A stretch of DNA of 64,000 bases from Bradyrhizobium diazoefficiens. Its GTDB lineage: Bacteria; Pseudomonadota; Alphaproteobacteria; Rhizobiales; Xanthobacteraceae. The translations under genes and the position numbers were made by a program. Of this stretch, positions 935-61,772 are shown one piece after another. Location of the stretch: NCBI RefSeq assembly GCF_018131185.1, contig NZ_JAFCJE010000002.1, forward strand, positions 620,001 to 684,000, written 5' to 3'. Below the pieces are notes generated by a model that saw only the letters and a list, made by a program, of their open reading frames with translations, did not search any database and was not told the origin of the DNA. How positions within the stretch are numbered: the first letter of the stretch is position 1; the number at the start of each line of letters is the position of its first letter.

Positions 935-1087
935 CGCGCACTCCACTGTCATTGACGCCGATCAATTCCGCCCGTCACGCGCCGGCAGACCATGGCGCGT
1001 CCTGCAGGCGCGATTTGCTTGGGATCAATGACGGCCGACAGATGCGGGAACATGATCGCTCGTCTTCAACGAAGAAGAGAGGTTGTC

Positions 1088-4246: not shown

Positions 4247-7200
4247 ATGAGCTTAGACGCCCCGCGTCCGTTCAAGAGCCGTCCGGACGCTTTCCCCCGC
4301 CATCTGCTGGCACTTGCCGTTCTGCTCGGGTCCACCGGCTCCGCAGCCGCGCTGAGCAAGGAAGGAGCGCTCGAGAATTGCCGGATGACGGCCGGCCGGC
4401 CGATCGTGCAAGCTTGCATGCGCGCCGGCGGAGGGCCGGCCGGAGGCGCCAATCTCGAAGCCTGCCGCGCCAAGGCAGCGCCTCAGGTCAGGGCCTGTGT
4501 GATGGCCGCGCTGAATGCCGCCAATGGGCGTGCCAATGTTGCGGTGGAGCTTCCCAAGGACGCGGCGCCCAAGCTCGAGTCAGGTACGGCGCTGCCGAAG
4601 GATTTCGTCGCGCCGCCGCGCAGCATCGCCGACATCACGGCGATCCTCGATGGCGACAAGCCCGACGAGAAGATGATCGCCGAGCTGAAGGCGGACGCCG
4701 ACACGGCACCGACCGGGAAGGAGTCCCGCCAGGATCTCGCGCAGCTCTATTTCGATCGCGCCAATGCGCGCGCGCAGCTCGGACGCCTCGCCGAAGCGAT
4801 GTCCGATGCCGACAAGGCCGTGGAGGTCGGGCGCGGGGCTGTCGGCCCGCAACTGCTCGGGCGGATGTTGCAGCTTCAGTCGCTTCAGCACTCTATCGCG
4901 GGTGATCCGAAGCGCGCGCTCGAGATCATGCAAAGGCTTCTCCGCGAATCGGCCAGCATGCCGGGCGCCAAGGGCTTCATATTCACCACGAACCGCGCGA
5001 TCGCGGCCGTTCTGGTCCAGATGGGCGATCTCGCGCAAGCCGAGGCCTATCTCCGCCGCAGCCAGAGCGCTATCCAGGAGGCGCGCACCAGCGGCCATCC
5101 CAATTGGCGAGCGGCCTATGCGAAGTTCGGGCAGAGCTGGGAAGGAGAGCTTGAAATCTCTCGGGCACTCGTCTTCGAGGCGCGCGGACAGTATGCCGAC
5201 GCCGAGGCAGCGTACCGCATGGCGGAGGTGCGCAAGCGCGCGAGCACGAAGGCGATCATGGCGTCCGACAATGCGCCGGCCGAGACGATTCTGCTGCAGG
5301 CGATCGACGGCACCGTCTTGAGCCAGGCGCGCATGAAGGCGAAGCAGGGCCGGCTCGCCGAGGCCGAGGTGGACGCGCGCCGTGCGCTGCTCTCGCGCCT
5401 GCAGGACACCGGCAAGTACAACTCGGTTACGCCGCGCTACGTCATGGGTTTGGCGGGCATTCTGGTCGACCAGGGCCGTTACGAAGAAGCCGAGAAGCTC
5501 GGCCGCGTCGCCCTCGATATCAACAAGACCGTCGGTGTGCCCGAGGAGGCGCAGACCACCGTGCAACTGCTGTCGCAGCTCGCCGGCATCCTGACGCTGC
5601 GGCGCCAGAATGTCGAAGCGAACGCGATGTTCGCGCGGATCGACAAGGCCGTCGCCGGCTGGGATGCGCAGCGTCGCCAGGTGTTCGAGCTCAATCCATC
5701 CCGGATCCTGTCGCTCTATGGTGCCGGGCAACTGGACGCCGGCATCGCCGCCGCCGAACAGCTCGTGAAGAAGCAGGTCGCCCGGGTCGGGGAAAACCAC
5801 TTCGACGCCGCCTCGGCGCGCGGCACGCTGGCGGTCGGATTGATGCGCGCGCGGCGCGATGCCGACGCGATCAGGGAGTTCAAGGCCGCCATTCCGGTCA
5901 TGATGGCGAGCGCCAACGAGAACGCCGACGACGAAAACACGACCGTAGTGGCCGCGCGCAGCCAGCGGCTGCAGACCATCGTCGAGAGCTATCTGCTGCT
6001 GCTCGGCAGGGCGGAAGGAGCCGGCAAGGACGTCGGTGATGAGACGTTCAGCCTCGCCGATGCCGTCCGCGGCCGCTCGGTGCAGCAGGCATTGGCAGCT
6101 TCGAGCGCGCGCGCGGCGGCCAAGGATCCCGCGCTCGCCGAGCTCGTGCGCAAGGAGCAGGATCTGACCAAGCAGGTCAACGCTCAGCTCGGCACGCTCA
6201 ACAACGTGCTTACGCTTCCGGCGGCGGAGCGCGACGAGAAAGGCGTTGCACAAATTCAGGCCTCGATCGCGGCGTTGCGCGGCCAGCGCGACAAGGCGCG
6301 CCAGGAGATCAAGCAGAAGTTTCCGATCTACGCCGATCTCGTCTCGCCCAAGCCGCCGAGCGTCGCCGAGATCCGCGCGACGCTGGCCGACGACGAGGCC
6401 ATGCTGTCGTTCTATTTCGGCCAGAACGGCAGCTTCGTCTGGGCCGTGCCGAAATCGGGGCCGGTGGCGTTCGCCGCCGTGCAAGCCAAGATCGGCGACA
6501 TCGAGAGCAAGATCCGCAAGCTGCGCGAAGCGCTCGAGCCGCAGGCCGCGATGATCTCGGACATTCCGCCGTTCGACCTCAAGCTCGGTCATGAGCTCTA
6601 TGAGCTGCTGCTCAAGCCGGTCGAGAGCGGCTGGAAGCCGGCCAAGAACCTGATCGTCGTGACCAACGGCGCACTCGGACTCCTGCCGCTGTCCCTGTTG
6701 CCGACGGCACCGGCAGAGGTGGCTGCGGACGAGGATCCCCTCTTCGTCGGCTACCGCAACGTGCCGTGGCTGGCGCGGACCCATGCCGTGTCGACGGTGC
6801 CGTCGGCGGCAGCGTTGCGCACGTTGCGGCAATTGCCGCCCGGCAAGCCGGGCCGCGGCGACCTCGTCGCGTTCGGCGATCCCTATTTCAACGCCGATCA
6901 GCACGCCGAGGCGGAAAGCAGCGGGGAGAAGATCCAGGTCGCCGATGCCGGCGGCAACACCACGCGCGGCGGGCCGCTGAAGCGGCGCAACAGTCCCAAG
7001 CTCGACGGCGTCGACAGCGCCGAGCTGGGCCTCCTGCCCAGGCTTCCCGATACCGCCGACGAGCTGAAGTCGATCGCGCTGGCCTTGCAGGCGGACCCCT
7101 CGAAGGTGCTGTTCCTCGGCAAGAGCGCGACCGAGAGCGCGGTGAAGACCATGAACCTCTCGGGCTTCAAGATCCTGGCTTTTGCCACCCACGGTCTGGT

Positions 7201-9956: not shown

Positions 9957-9970
9957 TTGATCCGGATCAA
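9957..9970. promoter_or_regulatory. Perfect FNR/FixK-type box before the copper operon
   Basis: TTGATCCGGATCAA is a perfect palindrome matching the FNR consensus TTGAT-N4-ATCAA and the rhizobial FixK/FnrN form TTGA-N6-TCAA. A plausible -10 (TATGTT, 9992-9997) would put the box centre at about -40.5 to -41.5, the class II activator position. The first gene starts at 10040. This points to activation of the efflux operon at low oxygen by a FixK/FNR-family regulator; the binding protein is inferred. Confidence 0.75.
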
Positions 9971-25330: not shown

Positions 25331-25716
25331 CAGCGCGCGCAGCCAAACCACGTCCGATCAAGCCGGCACGCGTCGCGGCAACGGTGCGGAGAGGGCGAGC
25401 TGCTTTTCAATGTCGGCATACCGAGAGCCGGCCAGCAGCAAAAAAAAGCTGGTGGCGAGACCCGCACGCCACCTCGTCGGCATCGTTGCAGCGCATTCGA
25501 GCGAATGTCCGTGTGACGCACCGTCGGCTTTTCTCCTTGAAGTCTCTCAACTGCTGGTATATTGTCCGTTGCATCGATACTGGCCGAACAACTGTTCCGC
25601 TTTCGCCTCATATCCTGACGGCGCGCACGTTTCAGACATTCTCCATCATCGACTAACCGGACCGCTGGCCGCAACTCTGCGCGCCAGGTCCTGCGCGCAT
25701 GCGAAAGGAAATCCTG
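25331..25716 (+). promoter_or_regulatory. Long leader and promoter region of the cold-shock gene
   Basis: No convincing gene lies in these 386 bases. A sigma-70-like promoter is visible: TTGAAG (25537-25542), 17-base spacer, TATTGT (25560-25565). The predicted start near 25572 leaves a 5' leader of about 145 bases, as is usual for cspA-type mRNAs whose leader controls translation with temperature. The -35 overlaps TTGAAGTCTCTCAA, a TTGA-N6-TCAA match of weak symmetry. Confidence 0.5.
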
Positions 25717-51079: not shown

Positions 51080-52675
51080 CTACGTCGTCTCCTCCAGCGC
51101 GCGGTGCAGCCGTCGGATGATCACGCCGCGGGCGCGGTCGTCGGCGGCGGCCCCAATCCGGTCGTTGATGTCCAGCATGAGTTCCGACATTTCGTTGTGC
51201 CAGTCGAGACGGGTCACGGCCTCCGGCGCGAGCCGCCGGCGATGATCGACGTCGCGCACGCGCGGTTCGGGTGCGGCGAGTTCGTAGATGTCGTCCAGCA
51301 TCGGCTGGTAGACCCTCGCCGCCGGAATGATGCGCTCGGCGACGCGTTCGGCGAGGCCCGCGATCGCTGCTTCCTCGCCATGGACCAGGAACAGCCCGCG
51401 GGCGATCGGCCGTCGTGCCGCGATCCAGCCGGCGATGCCGGCGCCGTCGGCATGGCCCGAATATTCGTCGATCATGCGGATGCGGGCCGCGACCTTGATC
51501 TCGTCGCCCTGGATCCGCACGGCCTTGGCCCCGTTCTGGAGGAAGCGGCCGAGCGTGCCGTTGGCCTGGAAGCCGGCGAGCAGCACGGTCGCGCGCTCGT
51601 TCCACAGCCAGCGCTTCAGATGATGGCGGATACGGCCGGCATCGCACATGCCGCTCGCGGCGATGATGATATGGAATCCGGACAGACGCATGATCGCCTT
51701 GCTCTCGTCAGCGGTCTCGGTGAACTTGAGATGCGGCGAGTTGAGCAGCCGGCTGGCATCGACGGAGGGGTCGAGGCTCTCCGCATGGCGGCGGAAGACT
51801 TCGGTGGCGCGGATCGCCAGCGGAGAGTCGAGGAAGATCGGTGCCGTCGGAATCTCGCCATGCTCCATCAGGTCGACGAGGTCGACGATCAGTTCCTGGG
51901 TGCGCTCGACCGCGAAAGCGGGCATCAACAGCGCGCCGCCGGCCGCCGCGGCATCGCGCACCTCGGCCGCGAGGTGCTTGCGGCGGAGCGCAGGCGTCGT
52001 GGCCTCGCGCACCCGGTCGCCATAGGTCGATTCCGAGATGACATAGTCGAAATCGGTCGGCGCTTCGGGATCGGGCTGGAGCAGCTTGGCCTCCGGCCCG
52101 ACGTCGCCGGAGAGCAGCACGCGCAGCGGACGCGTCGAACCCTGCTCGGCGATTTCGAGCTCGATCGAGGCCGAGCCGAGCAGATGGCCCGCGTTCCAAT
52201 AGCGCGCACGGACGCCCGGGATCACGTCGGTCCAGGTTTCATAATCGACCGCGCGAAACGATTGCAGCGATGCGATAGCGTCGGCCTGCGTGTAGATCGG
52301 CGCGACCTGCTTGCGACCGCGCGAGGCGTTGCGCCGGTTGAGCTGCGTGACTTCCGATTCCTGGATGCTGCCGGCGTCGGGCAGCATGTAGGAGCAGAGG
52401 TCGATCGTGCCGCGCGTCGCCAGGATCGGTCCCTCGAATCCCGCGCGCACGAGTTTCGGCAGCAGACCGCTGTGGTCGATATGGGCGTGCGTGAGCAGCA
52501 CGGCATCGATATCGGCGGGGCGGAACGGAAAGGCGCCGTAGTTGAGCTCCTTCAGCGTCTTCTGGCCCTGGAACAGGCCGCAATCGACCAGGAAGCGACC
52601 GCCTGCGGTCTGAAACAGATAGCTCGAACCGGTCACGGTGCGGGCGGCGCCGCAAAATCGAACGGTGATGCTCAT
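51080..52675 (-). CDS. Beta-CASP metallo-beta-lactamase-fold ribonuclease
   Basis: 531 residues. The metal motif HAHIDH is at 63-68 (His63, His65, Asp67, His68), with GHLLGSASIEL and LLSGDVGPEAK as later metal ligands. The beta-CASP part has MPAFAVERTQELI, ASGMCDAGRIRHHLKRW, GFQANGTLGRFL and EYSGHADGAGI, the RNA-specificity set of CPSF/archaeal-type exo/endonucleases. The C-terminal 60 residues are extra helices. It should degrade RNA in the cytoplasm. Its start overlaps the end of the PRPP synthetase-like gene (ATGA), tying it to nucleotide recycling. Confidence 0.87.
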   Translation of the reverse strand: MSITVRFCGAARTVTGSSYLFQTAGGRFLVDCGLFQGQKTLKELNYGAFPFRPADIDAVLLTHAHIDHSGLLPKLVRAGFEGPILATRGTIDLCSYMLPDAGSIQESEVTQLNRRNASRGRKQVAPIYTQADAIASLQSFRAVDYETWTDVIPGVRARYWNAGHLLGSASIELEIAEQGSTRPLRVLLSGDVGPEAKLLQPDPEAPTDFDYVISESTYGDRVREATTPALRRKHLAAEVRDAAAAGGALLMPAFAVERTQELIVDLVDLMEHGEIPTAPIFLDSPLAIRATEVFRRHAESLDPSVDASRLLNSPHLKFTETADESKAIMRLSGFHIIIAASGMCDAGRIRHHLKRWLWNERATVLLAGFQANGTLGRFLQNGAKAVRIQGDEIKVAARIRMIDEYSGHADGAGIAGWIAARRPIARGLFLVHGEEAAIAGLAERVAERIIPAARVYQPMLDDIYELAAPEPRVRDVDHRRRLAPEAVTRLDWHNEMSELMLDINDRIGAAADDRARGVIIRRLHRALEETT

Positions 52676-53595
52676 GTCGTCGTCTCCGGAAGATGTGCCG
52701 TCGGCAGTTCGGACCGCAGGGTGGCCGCGAGAATCTCGTCGAGCGCGATCGCATTGGTCGGATGCGGCACGCTGTCGGTCGAGCGCACCGACCGGATGCC
52801 GGCCTCGGCGAATGCGGCGATCATCCCGGCTGGGAAAAGCGCGTGCGTCACGATCGCATCGACGGCGGTCGCGCCCATCGCCGTCAGGGCCTTCGCCGTG
52901 GCCATCAGCGTCGTCCCGGAGGAGACGATGTCATCCACCATGAGCGCCGGCCGCCCCGCGAGCAGGCCGGGATCGGCGAAACTGATCGCCACGGAACGAT
53001 CGCCGTGCCGCGTCTTTCGCGCCACCGTGTGCTGCAATCCGAGCCGGCTCGCGACGTCGTTCACCCAGGGCTCGGACTCCATGTCGGGTCCGATCACGAT
53101 CGTCGCGGGATGGATGCCGCCGCCCCTCGCCAGTGCGTGCGCGATCGCCGGCATGGCGGACAGGTTCTCGGCTTCGATACCTGGAAAAACGGACGCGATG
53201 TCGGGAGTGCGATGGAGGTGCGCATCCACGGTGACGATTCGGTCGACGATCGTTGCAAGCAGACCGCCCATGGCACGCTGGCTGATCGCCTCGCCCGCAT
53301 GAAATGCTGCATCCTGCCGCATGTAGCAGAGATAGGGCGCGATCAGCACCAGCCGCTTGGCGCCACCGCGGCGCAGGGCCTCCGCGGCAAACAGCAGGGC
53401 GATCAGCTTGTCATTGGGTTGATCGAGCGGGGCATACAGGAGGACGATGTCGGTCGGCGGCGCGACGGCCACGCGCAGCTCGCCGTCCGGAAAGCGATGG
53501 ACGGCGATCTCGCTGCAGGAAAGCCCGAGCCGCGCCGCAAGCCGCTTCGCCGCATCGCTACCGCCGGGCAGTGTCTGGAGCGCGATCGTGCTCAC
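52672..53595 (-). CDS. Ribose-phosphate pyrophosphokinase homologue (archaeal-like)
   Basis: 307 residues from GTG. Family motifs include [41 protein letters not shown] and the PRPP loop [10 protein letters not shown]. The RQDxxFxxGEAIS pattern and the loop sequence are closer to archaeal class III enzymes than to the housekeeping bacterial Prs (VDDxIDTAGT type). It makes PRPP from ribose 5-phosphate and ATP or acts on a related ribose phosphate. Both ends overlap neighbours by four bases, so all three products are made together. Confidence 0.85.
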
Positions 53596-55133
53596 GGCGC
53601 GGTCTTGCCTTGCAGGGCCTCGTGACCGTTGACGACATACCCGGTTTCCTCGGCGGCGGCATCGGCAACCAGATCCTGCTCGGTGCGATCGAAAGTATGG
53701 ACACGGTAGAGCGGCTCGCCCTGCTCGACGCCATCGCCGATCTTCTTGAACAGGCGGATGCCGGCGCCCTTGTCGAGCGGTGCTCCGGCGGTGCGGGCGA
53801 GGCGGTTCAGACGCAGGCAGTCGATCGCGGACACGGTGCCGTCATGCGTCGCCTTGACATCGAAGCTGATCGGCCCCAGCTCGCTGCTGCATGTCGACGG
53901 ACCCTGGGCGTCGATGATTTTCTGCATCTGCTTCAGTGCCGCGCCGCTGTCGAGCAATTCGCGCGCTCTCGCATAGCCGGCGCCGCCGCGCAGCTTCGGA
54001 TCGTATTCCAGCAGATGAGCGGCGAGCCGGAGCGATTTCTCGCGCAGATCGCGCGGCGCATCCGGATCGTTGCCGAGCACGGCCATGACGTCATTGGCTT
54101 CGAGCACCGGCCCGATGCCGTTGCCGATCGGCTGGCTTCCGTCGGTCATGATGACCTCGACGGTGCGGCCGAAGCGGTCGCCGACGAATTCGAACAGCTT
54201 TCGCAGCCGCATGGCCTCGACGCCGCTGGTGACCTTCGCGGTCGGCCCGACCGGAATGTCGATCAGCAGATGCGTCGAACCCGCCGCGATCTTCTTGGAC
54301 ATGATCGAGGCGACCATCTGCTCGCGGGTATCGAGGCTCAGGGGACGCTCGACCGAGATCAGGACGTCGTCGGCCGGCGACAGGTTGACGTGGCCGCCCC
54401 AGATCAGGCAGCCGTTGCAGGCCGAGACGATCGCCTTCATCTCCTCGACGCCGATATTCACCCGCGCCAGCACCTCCATCGTGTCGGCGGTGCCGGCAGG
54501 CGAGGTGATGGCGCGCGAGGACGTCTTGGGGATCGGCAGGCCGTGGGCGGCGACGATCGGCACCACCACCATCGAGGTGCGATTGCCGGGGATGCCTCCG
54601 ATGCAATGCTTGTCGACGATGATCGGGGTCGGCCACACCAATTGCGTGCCGGCCTGGGCCATCGCTCCGGTCAGGGCGAGCAGTTCGTCGCTGGTGATGA
54701 AGCTCGCCGAACCGATCAGGAAGGCGGCGATCTCCATGTCCGAGTAGCGATAATGTGCGAGATCGTCGATGATCGCGCCGATCTCGGCCTGGCTCAAGGT
54801 TCGCCCGCGGATCTTCGCGCGCACCGCTTCCAGGCTCTCCGGAGGCGAGGCGGGCCTGACCGTGACCAGCGTGCCGACGCCTTGCGCGAAGCGTCGGAAC
54901 GCAGGCTCGGAGAGCCCGATCTCGTCCGGGGCAGCCAGCGCGTGGTCGTCCGTGATCAGCAACGTCGCCAGCATGACCTTGTCGCCCTGGCGAAGCTCGA
55001 CGCGGCTGAAGCCGCGGAAGATCTCGGCGCGCAGCGCTTTCGACTGCCGGGAGACGACGACGACGTTTTCGCGGCCGGTATCGAGCCGGACGCGGCGGAT
55101 CTTCAGCTGGGAGTGCGGGAGGTCTGGATGCAT
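53592..55133 (-). CDS. NMP/thymidine phosphorylase, archaeal AMP phosphorylase type
   Basis: 513 residues, longer than the 440 of E. coli DeoA because of an N-terminal domain (about 1-95) seen in archaeal AMP phosphorylases. The catalytic region reads [40 protein letters not shown] and [17 protein letters not shown]. Family enzymes split nucleotides or nucleosides with phosphate, giving base plus ribose 1,5-bisphosphate or (deoxy)ribose 1-phosphate. It is the first gene of the RNA-to-PRPP-like operon. Whether it uses NMPs or thymidine must be inferred; the N-terminal domain favours NMPs. Confidence 0.84.
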
Positions 55134-55192: not shown

Positions 55193-55206
55193 GTTGACCC
55201 AGATCA
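55193..55206. promoter_or_regulatory. Weak FNR/FixK-like site before the phosphorylase operon
   Basis: TTGACCCAGATCAT differs by one base from TTGA-N6-TCAA. On the minus strand a TAAGCA hexamer lies about 21 bases further, giving near class II spacing; the gene starts at 55133. Confidence 0.35.
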
Positions 55207-55280
55207 TGGCCTGGGGGAGGCCATGCGCGCCATGGCGATGTCCCCGATACCGGATGGCTGCATCCGGCCGGGGCGGCCGG

Positions 55281-55445
55281 TTACTTCATGGCGGAGTCGA
55301 TCGAGTTGAACTTGTTGTTGAGCAGCGCGCCGCCCGTGCTGTTCACGATGGTGACGATCGCCAGCGCGATCCCCGCCGCAATCAGGCCGTACTCGATCGC
55401 CGTTGCACCATTCTCATCGGCAAGGAACGACTTGAGCAAACGCAT
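55281..55445 (-). CDS. Flp/Fap-type pilin
   Basis: 54 residues from the ATG at 55445 after AGGAG. MRLLKSFLADENGATAIEYG shows the leader, the prepilin peptidase site G-A-TAIEYG with the conserved Glu5 and Tyr of mature Flp pilins, followed by one hydrophobic helix (LIAAGIALAIVTIV) and a short tail. Length is right. No cpa/tad assembly genes are in the window, so it depends on a cluster elsewhere. A palindrome CCTTAAATTAAGG (55579-55591) and AT-rich DNA lie upstream. Confidence 0.9.
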   Translation of the reverse strand: MRLLKSFLADENGATAIEYGLIAAGIALAIVTIVNSTGGALLNNKFNSIDSAMK

Positions 55446-55732
55446 TGCCAACTCCTGTTCATCCGATCCAACGTATGGTCGCATCGTCATCGGACTCGTA
55501 AATAGATCGAATAAGTCTTTATGCGCGCCAAAAGAATTAAGCCCGGGCGAGGGCGCCCCCCGCTCATACGACGGCACCCCTTAAATTAAGGTTCCACCGG
55601 TGCGTCCAAATGGATTCAAATCGGCCACCCACCGCCGTGAGGGGTGGTGAAGCGCGCCGGAAGGGGCTCTCCGTGCCGGGCAGGGGAGTGCCGCTTAACG
55701 AATTATTGAGGCTGTTTGCCAGGCCATCGCGC

Positions 55733-56027: not shown

Positions 56028-57023
56028 TCAGCTCGCCTTCTTCGCCCGCGCCGGCGCGCGCACCGGCTTGTCGGCGGCCTTTTTCGGGGCTTCCTTCGCC
56101 GTCTTCGCCGCAGCGTCCTTGCCGCCCTTGCCTGCGATCGGGAGCAGCATCTCGCGCTGGCCCTCGACGCGCTTCTTCGGCTTCCTGGCCTTGGTGGTCT
56201 CCTTGGCAGTCTCCTTGGCGACCTTCGCCGCAGGCGCAGCGTCCTTCTCGTTCGCGATGCTCTTCTTCAGCGCGTCCATCAAGTTGATGACGTTGCCGCC
56301 GCTCTTCGGCGTGGCCTTGGCCGCGATCGGCATGCCGCTGCGCTTCTTGTTGATGAGATCGATCAGGGCGGTCTCGTAATGATCCTCGAACAGCTCAGGC
56401 TCGAACGCGCCGGACTTCTTCTCGACGATGTGCCTGGCGAGGTCGAGCATGTCCTTCGTCAGCTTCACGTCCTGGATGTCGTCGAAATATTCCTGCTCGC
56501 TGCGGACCTCGTAGGGATAGCGCAGCAGCGTGCCCATCAGCCCGCTCTCGAGCGGCTCGAGCGCGATGATGTGCTCGCGGTTGGTCAGCACCACGCGGCC
56601 GATCGCGACCTTGTCCATGCTGCGGATGGTCTCGCGGATCACGGCATAGGCGTCGTGGCCGACCTTGCCGTCCGGCACGAGATAATAGGGGCGGATCAGA
56701 TAGCGGTTGTCGATGTCGGCCTTCGGCACGAACTCGTCGATGTCGATCGTGTGGGTCGAGTCGAGCGCGATGTCGTCGAGCTCGTCCTTGGTGACCTCGA
56801 TATAGGTGTCGGTGTCGACCTTGTAGCCCTTGACGATGTCCTCGGAAGTCACCTCGTCACCGGTCTCGGCGTCGACCTTGAGGTACTTGATCCGGTGGCC
56901 GGTCTTGCGGTTGATCTGGTTGAAGGAGACCTTCTCGGTATCCGAAGTGGCCGGATAGAGCGCGACCGGACAGGTCACGAGCGACAGACGCAGAAAACCC
57001 TTCCAATTGGCGCGGGGGGCCAT
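56028..57023 (-). CDS. ku: DNA end-binding protein Ku
   Basis: 331 residues. The Ku core domain (about 5-255) starts APRANWKGFLRLSLVTCPVA and contains RIKYLKVDAETGDEVTSEDI, KADIDNRYLIRPYYLVPDG and DVKLTKDMLDLARHIVEKKS. A Lys/Ala-rich low-complexity tail (about 265-331) should bind DNA. It forms a homodimer ring on double-strand ends and recruits LigD for non-homologous end joining. No ligD is in the window; Bradyrhizobium usually has several ku copies. Confidence 0.92.
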   Translation of the reverse strand: MAPRANWKGFLRLSLVTCPVALYPATSDTEKVSFNQINRKTGHRIKYLKVDAETGDEVTSEDIVKGYKVDTDTYIEVTKDELDDIALDSTHTIDIDEFVPKADIDNRYLIRPYYLVPDGKVGHDAYAVIRETIRSMDKVAIGRVVLTNREHIIALEPLESGLMGTLLRYPYEVRSEQEYFDDIQDVKLTKDMLDLARHIVEKKSGAFEPELFEDHYETALIDLINKKRSGMPIAAKATPKSGGNVINLMDALKKSIANEKDAAPAAKVAKETAKETTKARKPKKRVEGQREMLLPIAGKGGKDAAAKTAKEAPKKAADKPVRAPARAKKAS

Positions 57024-61754: not shown

Positions 61755-61772
61755 AATTGACAATTGTCAATT
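61755..61772. promoter_or_regulatory. Perfect palindrome, FixK/FNR-type box before ccmI
   Basis: AATTGACAATTGTCAATT is an 18-base perfect palindrome containing TTGACAATTGTCAA, which fits TTGA-N6-TCAA. TGTAAA at 61793-61798 is exactly where the -10 of a class II promoter would lie (box centre at -41.5, start about 61805). The ccmI gene starts at 61842. Confidence 0.65.

Follow-up and report, generated by a model that had tools for sequence, protein, structure and literature searches.

A FixK2-box operon of Bradyrhizobium diazoefficiens that may salvage nucleotide ribose under oxygen limitation

NMP phosphorylases have been described in archaea and, through metagenomes, in candidate-phylum bacteria with type III RuBisCO, and PhnN is the known kinase that converts ribose 1,5-bisphosphate (R15P) to PRPP. 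The archaeal carboxylating and non-carboxylating pentose bisphosphate pathways take nucleotides to central carbon (PMC9700705), and R15P, their hub, is the expected hub of the system described here as well. According to the accessible text of two reports, the B. diazoefficiens operon bll3117-bll3116-bll3115 is induced by microoxia in a FixK2-dependent manner (PMC9104804, PMC6515984); there, its genes appear only as members of the regulon, with no function proposed.

The same three genes, FixK2 box and box position are found in the window, the whole 64,000-nucleotide stretch of B. diazoefficiens DNA that we analysed (Table 1). Three minus-strand open reading frames, whose coordinates were checked, occupy positions 51080-55133 and encode a phosphorylase, a PRPP-synthetase (Prs) paralogue and an RNase. 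Both four-base overlaps described in an earlier note on this DNA are present and, as that note had also observed, neither an R15P isomerase nor RuBisCO neighbours the operon. No RNA families were found in 50-58 kb of the window, and no tRNA in the window as a whole. A neighbourhood survey of 117 flanked loci placed a Prs paralogue near the phosphorylase in 103 of them and RNase homologues in 60, so the arrangement is not a matter of chance.

Table 1. Features of the operon and its upstream region, in window positions
Feature	Position	Strand	Details
NMP (AMP-type) phosphorylase homologue	53592..55133	-	513 aa; TIGR02645/NF003338
Phosphorylase-linked Prs paralogue	52672..53595	-	307 aa, GTG start; NF005537/PRK07199
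Beta-CASP metallo-beta-lactamase RNase homologue	51080..52675	-	531 aa
Overlap, phosphorylase/Prs paralogue	53592..53595	-	4 bp, GTGA
Overlap, Prs paralogue/RNase	52672..52675	-	4 bp, ATGA
Phosphorylase codons 206-211	54501..54518	-	SRAITS, common to T. kodakarensis AMP phosphorylase, replaced in DeoA
Linked Prs codons 126-129	53209..53220	-	HLHR, family-specific active-site motif
Linked Prs codons 169-174	53074..53091	-	GPDMES, family-specific active-site motif (SPDxGG in ordinary Prs)
FixK2 box	55194..55207	-	ATGATCTGGGTCAA; first base 74 bases upstream of phosphorylase ATG

The FixK2 box is identical in motif and position (-74) to that given for bll3117 (PMC9104804). Microoxic induction at the protein level (log2) is reported as 2.1 for bll3117, 4.4 for bll3116 and 2.9 for bll3115, and as 4.3 for the phosphoketolase bll2518 (PMC6515984). 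Judged by its sequence, the window operon belongs with the FixK2-box operons, and its microoxic expression is predicted from these orthologues. The window genome also contains the FixK2-controlled phosphoketolase-acetate kinase pair, whose phosphoketolase bears the published bll2518 FixK2 box. The bll3117-3115 operon is not listed among genes induced in soybean bacteroids in the accessible published text, and a FixK/FNR box, sought across all loci, was conserved only around Bradyrhizobium.

The phosphorylase is currently annotated in the thymidine phosphorylase family. It scores 737.6 bits against TIGR02645 (cut-off 434.6), with residues 10-503 matched, and 690.3 bits against NF003338 (cut-off 434). 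Its score against the thymidine phosphorylase profile TIGR02643 is 130.7 bits, below the cut-off of 570.7, and it falls far under the DeoA and PyNP cut-offs. The alignment to the archaeal AMP phosphorylase 4ga5 begins at residue 10, and therefore the N-terminal domain that the earlier note had recognized is present; this domain is absent from DeoA and PyNP, and PyNP profile matches begin only near residue 102. Homology to the archaeal NMP/AMP phosphorylase of T. kodakarensis (TK0352, PDB 4ga4-4ga6) is full-length, the N-terminal domain included, and active-site residues are kept: G180, 206-211 (SRAITS), T215, D268, S276 and K300 are identical. We take the list of AMP-contacting residues to be that of the UniProt annotation of TK0352. 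DeoA differs at K300 (F), D268 (E) and the SRAITS segment. In the tree, the phosphorylase is split from DeoA with support of 100/100, and bacterial and archaeal AMP-type enzymes form one group apart from it. The phosphorylase phylogeny, one of three proposed in the earlier note, upheld the separation from DeoA, but the archaeal enzymes formed a separate sister clade to the bacterial ones, and the window protein also stays under the cut-off of the archaeal AMP phosphorylase equivalog TIGR03327 (479.8 bits, cut-off 535).

From the tree and the residues matching the characterized T. kodakarensis enzyme, the first gene probably encodes an NMP phosphorylase rather than DeoA. On the combined evidence of profile scores, residues and tree, a housekeeping thymidine phosphorylase was rejected. 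A housekeeping nucleoside phosphorylase, for thymidine or pyrimidine nucleosides, with incidental neighbours would agree with the current annotation and with the catalytic lysines and glycine loops common to the protein and DeoA; this is very unlikely, given the scores far under the DeoA/PyNP cut-offs, the deep separation in the tree, the conserved residues of 5´-phosphate type, the conserved neighbourhood and the fusion to PhnN described next.

Five relatives (L141-L145) fuse PhnN to the phosphorylase; in the L145 fusion, the PhnN score is 181.7 (cut-off 156) and the TIGR02645 score 458.6. Because PhnN (TIGR02322) acts on the expected product of the phosphorylase, these fusions support R15P as that product, which the earlier note had suggested and which now appears likely. 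The window operon differs in having a Prs paralogue in place of PhnN. Eight loci have no adjacent linked Prs; six of these genomes lack the linked Prs altogether and all six have PhnN, while the other two carry a linked Prs elsewhere in the genome and have no PhnN. Genome G311, in which the phosphorylase gene is broken, was left out of this count, and in the fusion genome G435 the second Prs is not of the linked type. PhnN is over its cut-off in 9/9 Bradyrhizobium genomes examined, and since it is nearly universal there, three of the six cases are uninformative alone. Counted by lineage, the complementarity stands at 3/3 versus 6/28 (p = 0.019); genome-wide co-occurrence of PhnN and the phosphorylase is not significant by itself (14/44 versus 75/354, p = 0.13).

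The linked Prs scores 389.7 bits against NF005537/PRK07199 (cut-off 322) and 169.4 bits against NF002095, below the cut-off of 296. The class III-like motifs that had been claimed for it were borne out: it has RQDxxFxxGE as in class III. Among solved structures, the Methanocaldococcus class III Prs 1u9y is its best relative. It shares its fold, nucleotide-binding residues and ribose 5-phosphate-loop residues with PRPP synthetases of class III (archaeal) and class I. The residues of a functional Prs are kept in FxDxE (F35, D37, E39), RQD (R93-Q94-D95), H126, D171, KxR (K194, R196) and the DD loop (D221-D222). It differs from both classes in invariant HLHR, GPDxES, W177 and KxRxxD: the ordinary catalytic-centre motifs SPDxGG and HAxQ are replaced by GPDMES and HLHR, and HLHR and GPDxES are nearly invariant in 147 linked Prs and absent from 30 ordinary ones. 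Where the phosphorylase is intact and standalone, the sampled genomes have an adjacent linked-type Prs and an ordinary Prs, with a single Prs seen in one incomplete genome, and four phosphorylase-negative Bradyrhizobium have one Prs each. On these sequence grounds, gene 2 is not the PRPP supply of the cell but a second Prs, dedicated and altered at its active site. The conversion towards PRPP put forward in the earlier note was borne out in part, its link to PRPP being supported by the PhnN fusions.

PhnN, elsewhere in the genome, might make PRPP from R15P, with the linked Prs either serving as an ordinary PRPP synthase or running in reverse (PRPP + AMP -> ribose 5-phosphate + ATP) to restore energy charge. 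No new enzyme activity would be required, the fusions and the retained Prs residues are in keeping with it, and the window genome has PhnN over its cut-off (226.7 bits). We nevertheless regard this as unlikely: PhnN is over cut-off in only 9 of 38 genomes with a standalone phosphorylase and linked Prs, the catalytic centre of the linked Prs carries invariant substitutions, and the cells already have an ordinary Prs. Our own suggestion, a tentative one that we hold at somewhat less than even odds, is that the linked Prs (NF005537) is a new R15P-acting enzyme that completes an unrecognized RNA-to-acetate pathway, by R15P + AMP -> ribose 5-phosphate + ADP or by forming PRPP in place of PhnN.

The comparison with type III RuBisCO did not hold. 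R15P isomerase is over its cut-off in 0/45 phosphorylase-positive genomes (the best match in the window genome is 140.4 bits against a cut-off of 314.1), sub-cut-off matches fit MtnA-type homologues, and the archaeal phosphorylases, as noted, form their own clade. The RuBisCO of the window genome is of form I, accompanied by its small subunit and CbbX, and its operon is an ordinary Calvin-cycle one. Conversion of R15P to ribulose 1,5-bisphosphate and carboxylation by this enzyme, as in the archaeal carboxylating pathway, would fit its presence and the mild enrichment of RuBisCO in phosphorylase genomes (20/44 versus 91/354, p = 0.012). Over half of the phosphorylase genomes lack RuBisCO, however, and with no isomerase over cut-off either, this route is highly improbable and was rejected as a general fate of R15P. 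The difference from the archaeal pathways (PMC9700705) is that the neighbours here suggest ribose 5-phosphate/PRPP and phosphoketolase.

Linkage to phosphoketolase and acetate kinase recurs. With AMPP denoting the phosphorylase, gene orders include AMPP-Prs-phosphoketolase (L154), RNase-phosphoketolase-acetate kinase beside AMPP-Prs (L146) and, on a Criblamydia plasmid, phosphoketolase-RNase-AMPP-Prs-acetate kinase. Phosphoketolase and acetate kinase genes both lie near the operon in L068, and L149 brings together Prs, a phosphoketolase-like gene, phosphotransacetylase and acetate kinase. Genome-wide, phosphoketolase is only modestly enriched (11/44 versus 40/354, p = 0.016), and the majority of sampled phosphorylase genomes lack it. 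Among the linked phosphoketolases are divergent ones, with about 24% identity and scores far under curated cut-offs.

The third gene is a beta-CASP RNase, as had been claimed, with Lactamase_B, Beta-Casp and RMMBL domains and RNase TTHA0252 as its best solved relative. RNase is lacking in nearly half of the loci and uncoupled in several, and because it is so often missing, RNA need not be the source of NMPs. AMP would rise under microoxia, and the phosphorylase and linked Prs might both serve to remove it, controlling energy charge, with the RNase a separate RNA-turnover factor. The patchy occurrence of the RNase speaks for this, as does pyruvate-phosphate dikinase near some loci. The RNase gene, on the other hand, overlaps the Prs gene in the window operon and adjoins phosphoketolase in L146 and the phosphorylase in L214, and we consider energy-charge control in place of RNA salvage somewhat unlikely.

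We favour, at a probability of roughly 0.55, an oxygen-limitation operon that salvages nucleotide ribose, from RNA through NMP and R15P to ribose 5-phosphate/PRPP and phosphoketolase. The beta-CASP RNase would yield 5´-NMPs from RNA, and the phosphorylase would convert NMP and Pi to base and R15P. The simplest roles for the linked Prs at the R15P/PRPP/ribose 5-phosphate node would be a reversed, shortened Prs reaction (R15P + AMP -> ribose 5-phosphate + ADP) or PRPP formation from R15P in the place of PhnN; we infer both its reaction and the flux through the whole pathway. Ribose 5-phosphate would be isomerized to xylulose 5-phosphate, which phosphoketolase would cleave to glyceraldehyde 3-phosphate and acetyl phosphate, with ATP then made by acetate kinase. 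The expected outcome is ATP and reusable bases from surplus RNA and AMP when respiration is limited.

If true, ribose salvage of this kind would amount to an RNA-to-acetate energy pathway for times of oxygen limitation, spread across Proteobacteria and present in a chlamydia. Archaeal-type chemistry seems to be tied to PRPP/ribose 5-phosphate and phosphoketolase in the low-oxygen response of common aerobes. The proposal offers a testable function for three co-induced and so far unexplained rhizobial proteins, and for a "thymidine phosphorylase" family whose annotation is widely wrong; it also suggests that the PRPP synthetase fold may hold a new activity.

The operon comprises three genes on the minus strand of the window, overlapping by four bases each, as the earlier note had described; the overlaps are GTGA (phosphorylase/Prs) and ATGA (Prs/RNase).

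Features of the operon and its surroundings (window positions unless a locus is named)
Feature	Position	Strand	Remarks
Phosphorylase gene	55133..53592	minus	TIGR02645/NF003338
Linked Prs (PRPP synthetase) gene	53595..52672	minus	NF005537/PRK07199
beta-CASP RNase gene	52675..51080	minus	three beta-CASP RNase domains
FixK2 box	55207-55194		14-mer identical to published ATGATCTGGGTCAA, exactly -74
Small gene just upstream	55281-55577		resembles Flp-type pilin
Ku gene just upstream	56028-57023		
Perfect TTGA-N6-TCAA site	952-965		
Perfect TTGA-N6-TCAA site	9957-9970		
Perfect TTGA-N6-TCAA site	25537-25550		
Perfect TTGA-N6-TCAA site	61757-61770		
PhnN-phosphorylase fusion	L145:8506-10548		both parts above curated cut-off
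Phosphorylase, apparently broken	L234, near 5074-5900		homology ends after about residue 348

The phosphorylase passes the cut-offs of TIGR02645 (737.6 bits) and NF003338 (690.3 bits) in profile searches, falls below the archaeal AMP phosphorylase equivalog TIGR03327 (479.8 vs 535), and scores far under the cut-offs of the DeoA and PyNP (thymidine/pyrimidine nucleoside phosphorylase) models. Its alignment to the T. kodakarensis AMP phosphorylase begins at residue 10, so the archaeal-type N-terminal domain proposed earlier is present. A 58-sequence tree split the family from DeoA (100/100) and put the four archaeal enzymes in a clade of their own (98/100), thus giving no sign of recent archaeal transfer. 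Bacteria and archaea share residues that DeoA does not, among others K203, S206, T210, S211, W245, D268, K300, P342 and Q410. The AMP contacts annotated for the T. kodakarensis enzyme, G168, 194-199, T203, D256, S264 and K288, map to G180, 206-211, T215, D268, S276 and K300 of the window enzyme, all identical. By sequence, it is a predicted nucleoside 5'-monophosphate (NMP) phosphorylase.

PhnN is a known ribose 1,5-bisphosphate (R15P) kinase whose product is PRPP, and its fusion to the phosphorylase occurs in five loci (L141-L145). No other sequence evidence argues as strongly for R15P as the phosphorylase product. The fusions form a single clade (100/100, same tree) and their loci are without a linked Prs; four of the five genomes have one Prs only, and the fifth (G435) has a second, of another type. 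A nadC-like gene precedes the fusion in all five loci, passing the nadC cut-off in L141 and L142, which suggests either a base-exchange route or PRPP made specifically for the synthesis of NAD precursors.

The phosphorylase family occurs in 44 of 398 Pseudomonadota genomes; among 117 loci with flanking DNA, a Prs paralogue lies nearby in 103 and the RNase, whose nearest solved structure is RNase TTHA0252, in 60. The linked Prs (389.7 bits to NF005537/PRK07199, cut-off 322) has the class III Prs of Methanocaldococcus as its nearest solved structure, in keeping with the class III-like motifs first pointed out, and is a dedicated paralogue with a changed catalytic centre. In the genomes sampled, an intact standalone phosphorylase goes with an adjoining linked-type Prs as well as an ordinary one, except in G292 (70% complete, single Prs), and four phosphorylase-negative Bradyrhizobium have one Prs each. 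G311, the genome of L234 with its apparently broken phosphorylase, has a single Prs only. Across 147 linked Prs sequences, F35, D37, E39, R93, Q94, D95, H126, D171, K194, R196, D221 and D222 (nucleotide binding/catalysis) are retained and D199 is invariant, with HAxQ changed to HLHR, SPDxGG to GPDxES, and R to W177; these positions adjoin the histidine and aspartate that, in this enzyme family, lie where the metal and the transferred phosphate bind. Eight loci have no adjacent linked Prs: six are in genomes without one anywhere, all six with PhnN, and the other two have one elsewhere, without PhnN. PhnN occurs in 9/38 genomes with a linked Prs vs 6/6 without (p = 7e-4 by genome, 0.019 by lineage), a count to be read with the near universality of PhnN in Bradyrhizobium. 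This is suggestive, though not proof, of equivalent work by the linked Prs and PhnN on R15P.

In the pathway that we favour, the RNase would cut RNA to 5'-NMPs, the phosphorylase would convert NMP and phosphate to base and R15P, and the linked Prs, or PhnN where present, would turn R15P into ribose 5-phosphate or PRPP; next, xylulose 5-phosphate would give acetyl phosphate and glyceraldehyde 3-phosphate, and ATP. The analysis shows the gene layout, the protein families, the FixK2 box and the linkage of genes; we infer every one of these reactions for the source organism. The comparison with archaeal type III RuBisCO did not hold: an R15P isomerase scores over cut-off in 0/45 phosphorylase-positive genomes, RuBisCO is absent from over half of the 44, and the source genome's own RuBisCO is form I, with small subunit and CbbX. 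Phosphoketolase and acetate kinase genes recur near the phosphorylase in relatives. L154 has phosphorylase-Prs-phosphoketolase, and in L146 an RNase-phosphoketolase-acetate kinase set lies 9-13 kb away from phosphorylase-Prs. Afipia L068 has both genes close to the operon. L149 groups Prs, a phosphoketolase-like gene, phosphorylase, phosphotransacetylase and acetate kinase, and L150 and L169 carry related sets. A Criblamydia plasmid has, in this order, phosphoketolase, glgP, ATP-cone protein, RNase, phosphorylase, Prs and acetate kinase. Acidovorax and Paracoccus plasmids (L216, L217) add type II glyceraldehyde 3-phosphate dehydrogenase; there phosphorylase-Prs-RNase sits in islands with that gene, heavy-metal P-type ATPases and phosphoketolase-like genes, and L216 also carries polyphosphate kinase 2. 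Some linked phosphoketolase-like proteins are divergent. Some loci were chosen because an earlier search showed phosphoketolase near the phosphorylase, so the number of linked loci does not measure how frequent the linkage is. Genome-wide, enrichment is modest (11/44 phosphorylase genomes vs 40/354 others, p = 0.016). Six loci (L080, L086, L092, L107, L162, L163) have a pyruvate-phosphate dikinase gene no more than about 8 kb from the phosphorylase.

The B. diazoefficiens orthologues bll3117-bll3116-bll3115 are published as one operon with a FixK2 box, ATGATCTGGGTCAA, at -74, and bll3117 and bll3115 fall 6.6-fold and 30.6-fold in a fixK2 mutant (PMC9104804); at 0.5% O2 the protein log2 changes are 2.1 (bll3117), 4.4 (bll3116), 2.9 (bll3115) and 4.3 for the phosphoketolase bll2518 (PMC6515984). 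The source genome's phosphoketolase-acetate kinase locus bears the published bll2518 box, TTGACCTCACGCAA; elsewhere, too, FixK is predicted to target phosphoketolase (PMC2908626). A near-identical box stands at about -70 throughout Bradyrhizobium loci; none was found upstream of the operon in the distant lineages compared. With one mismatch allowed, TTGA-N6-TCAA sites number 20 in the window vs 9.5 expected, so further FixK-type targets may lie there. The operon is not among the genes listed as induced in soybean bacteroids, so its condition is free-living microoxia, not symbiosis.

The open-licence papers searched offer no proposal for the operon's function. We class it as a variant of NMP-phosphorylase-based ribose salvage, in which any novelty is most likely to lie in the linked Prs.
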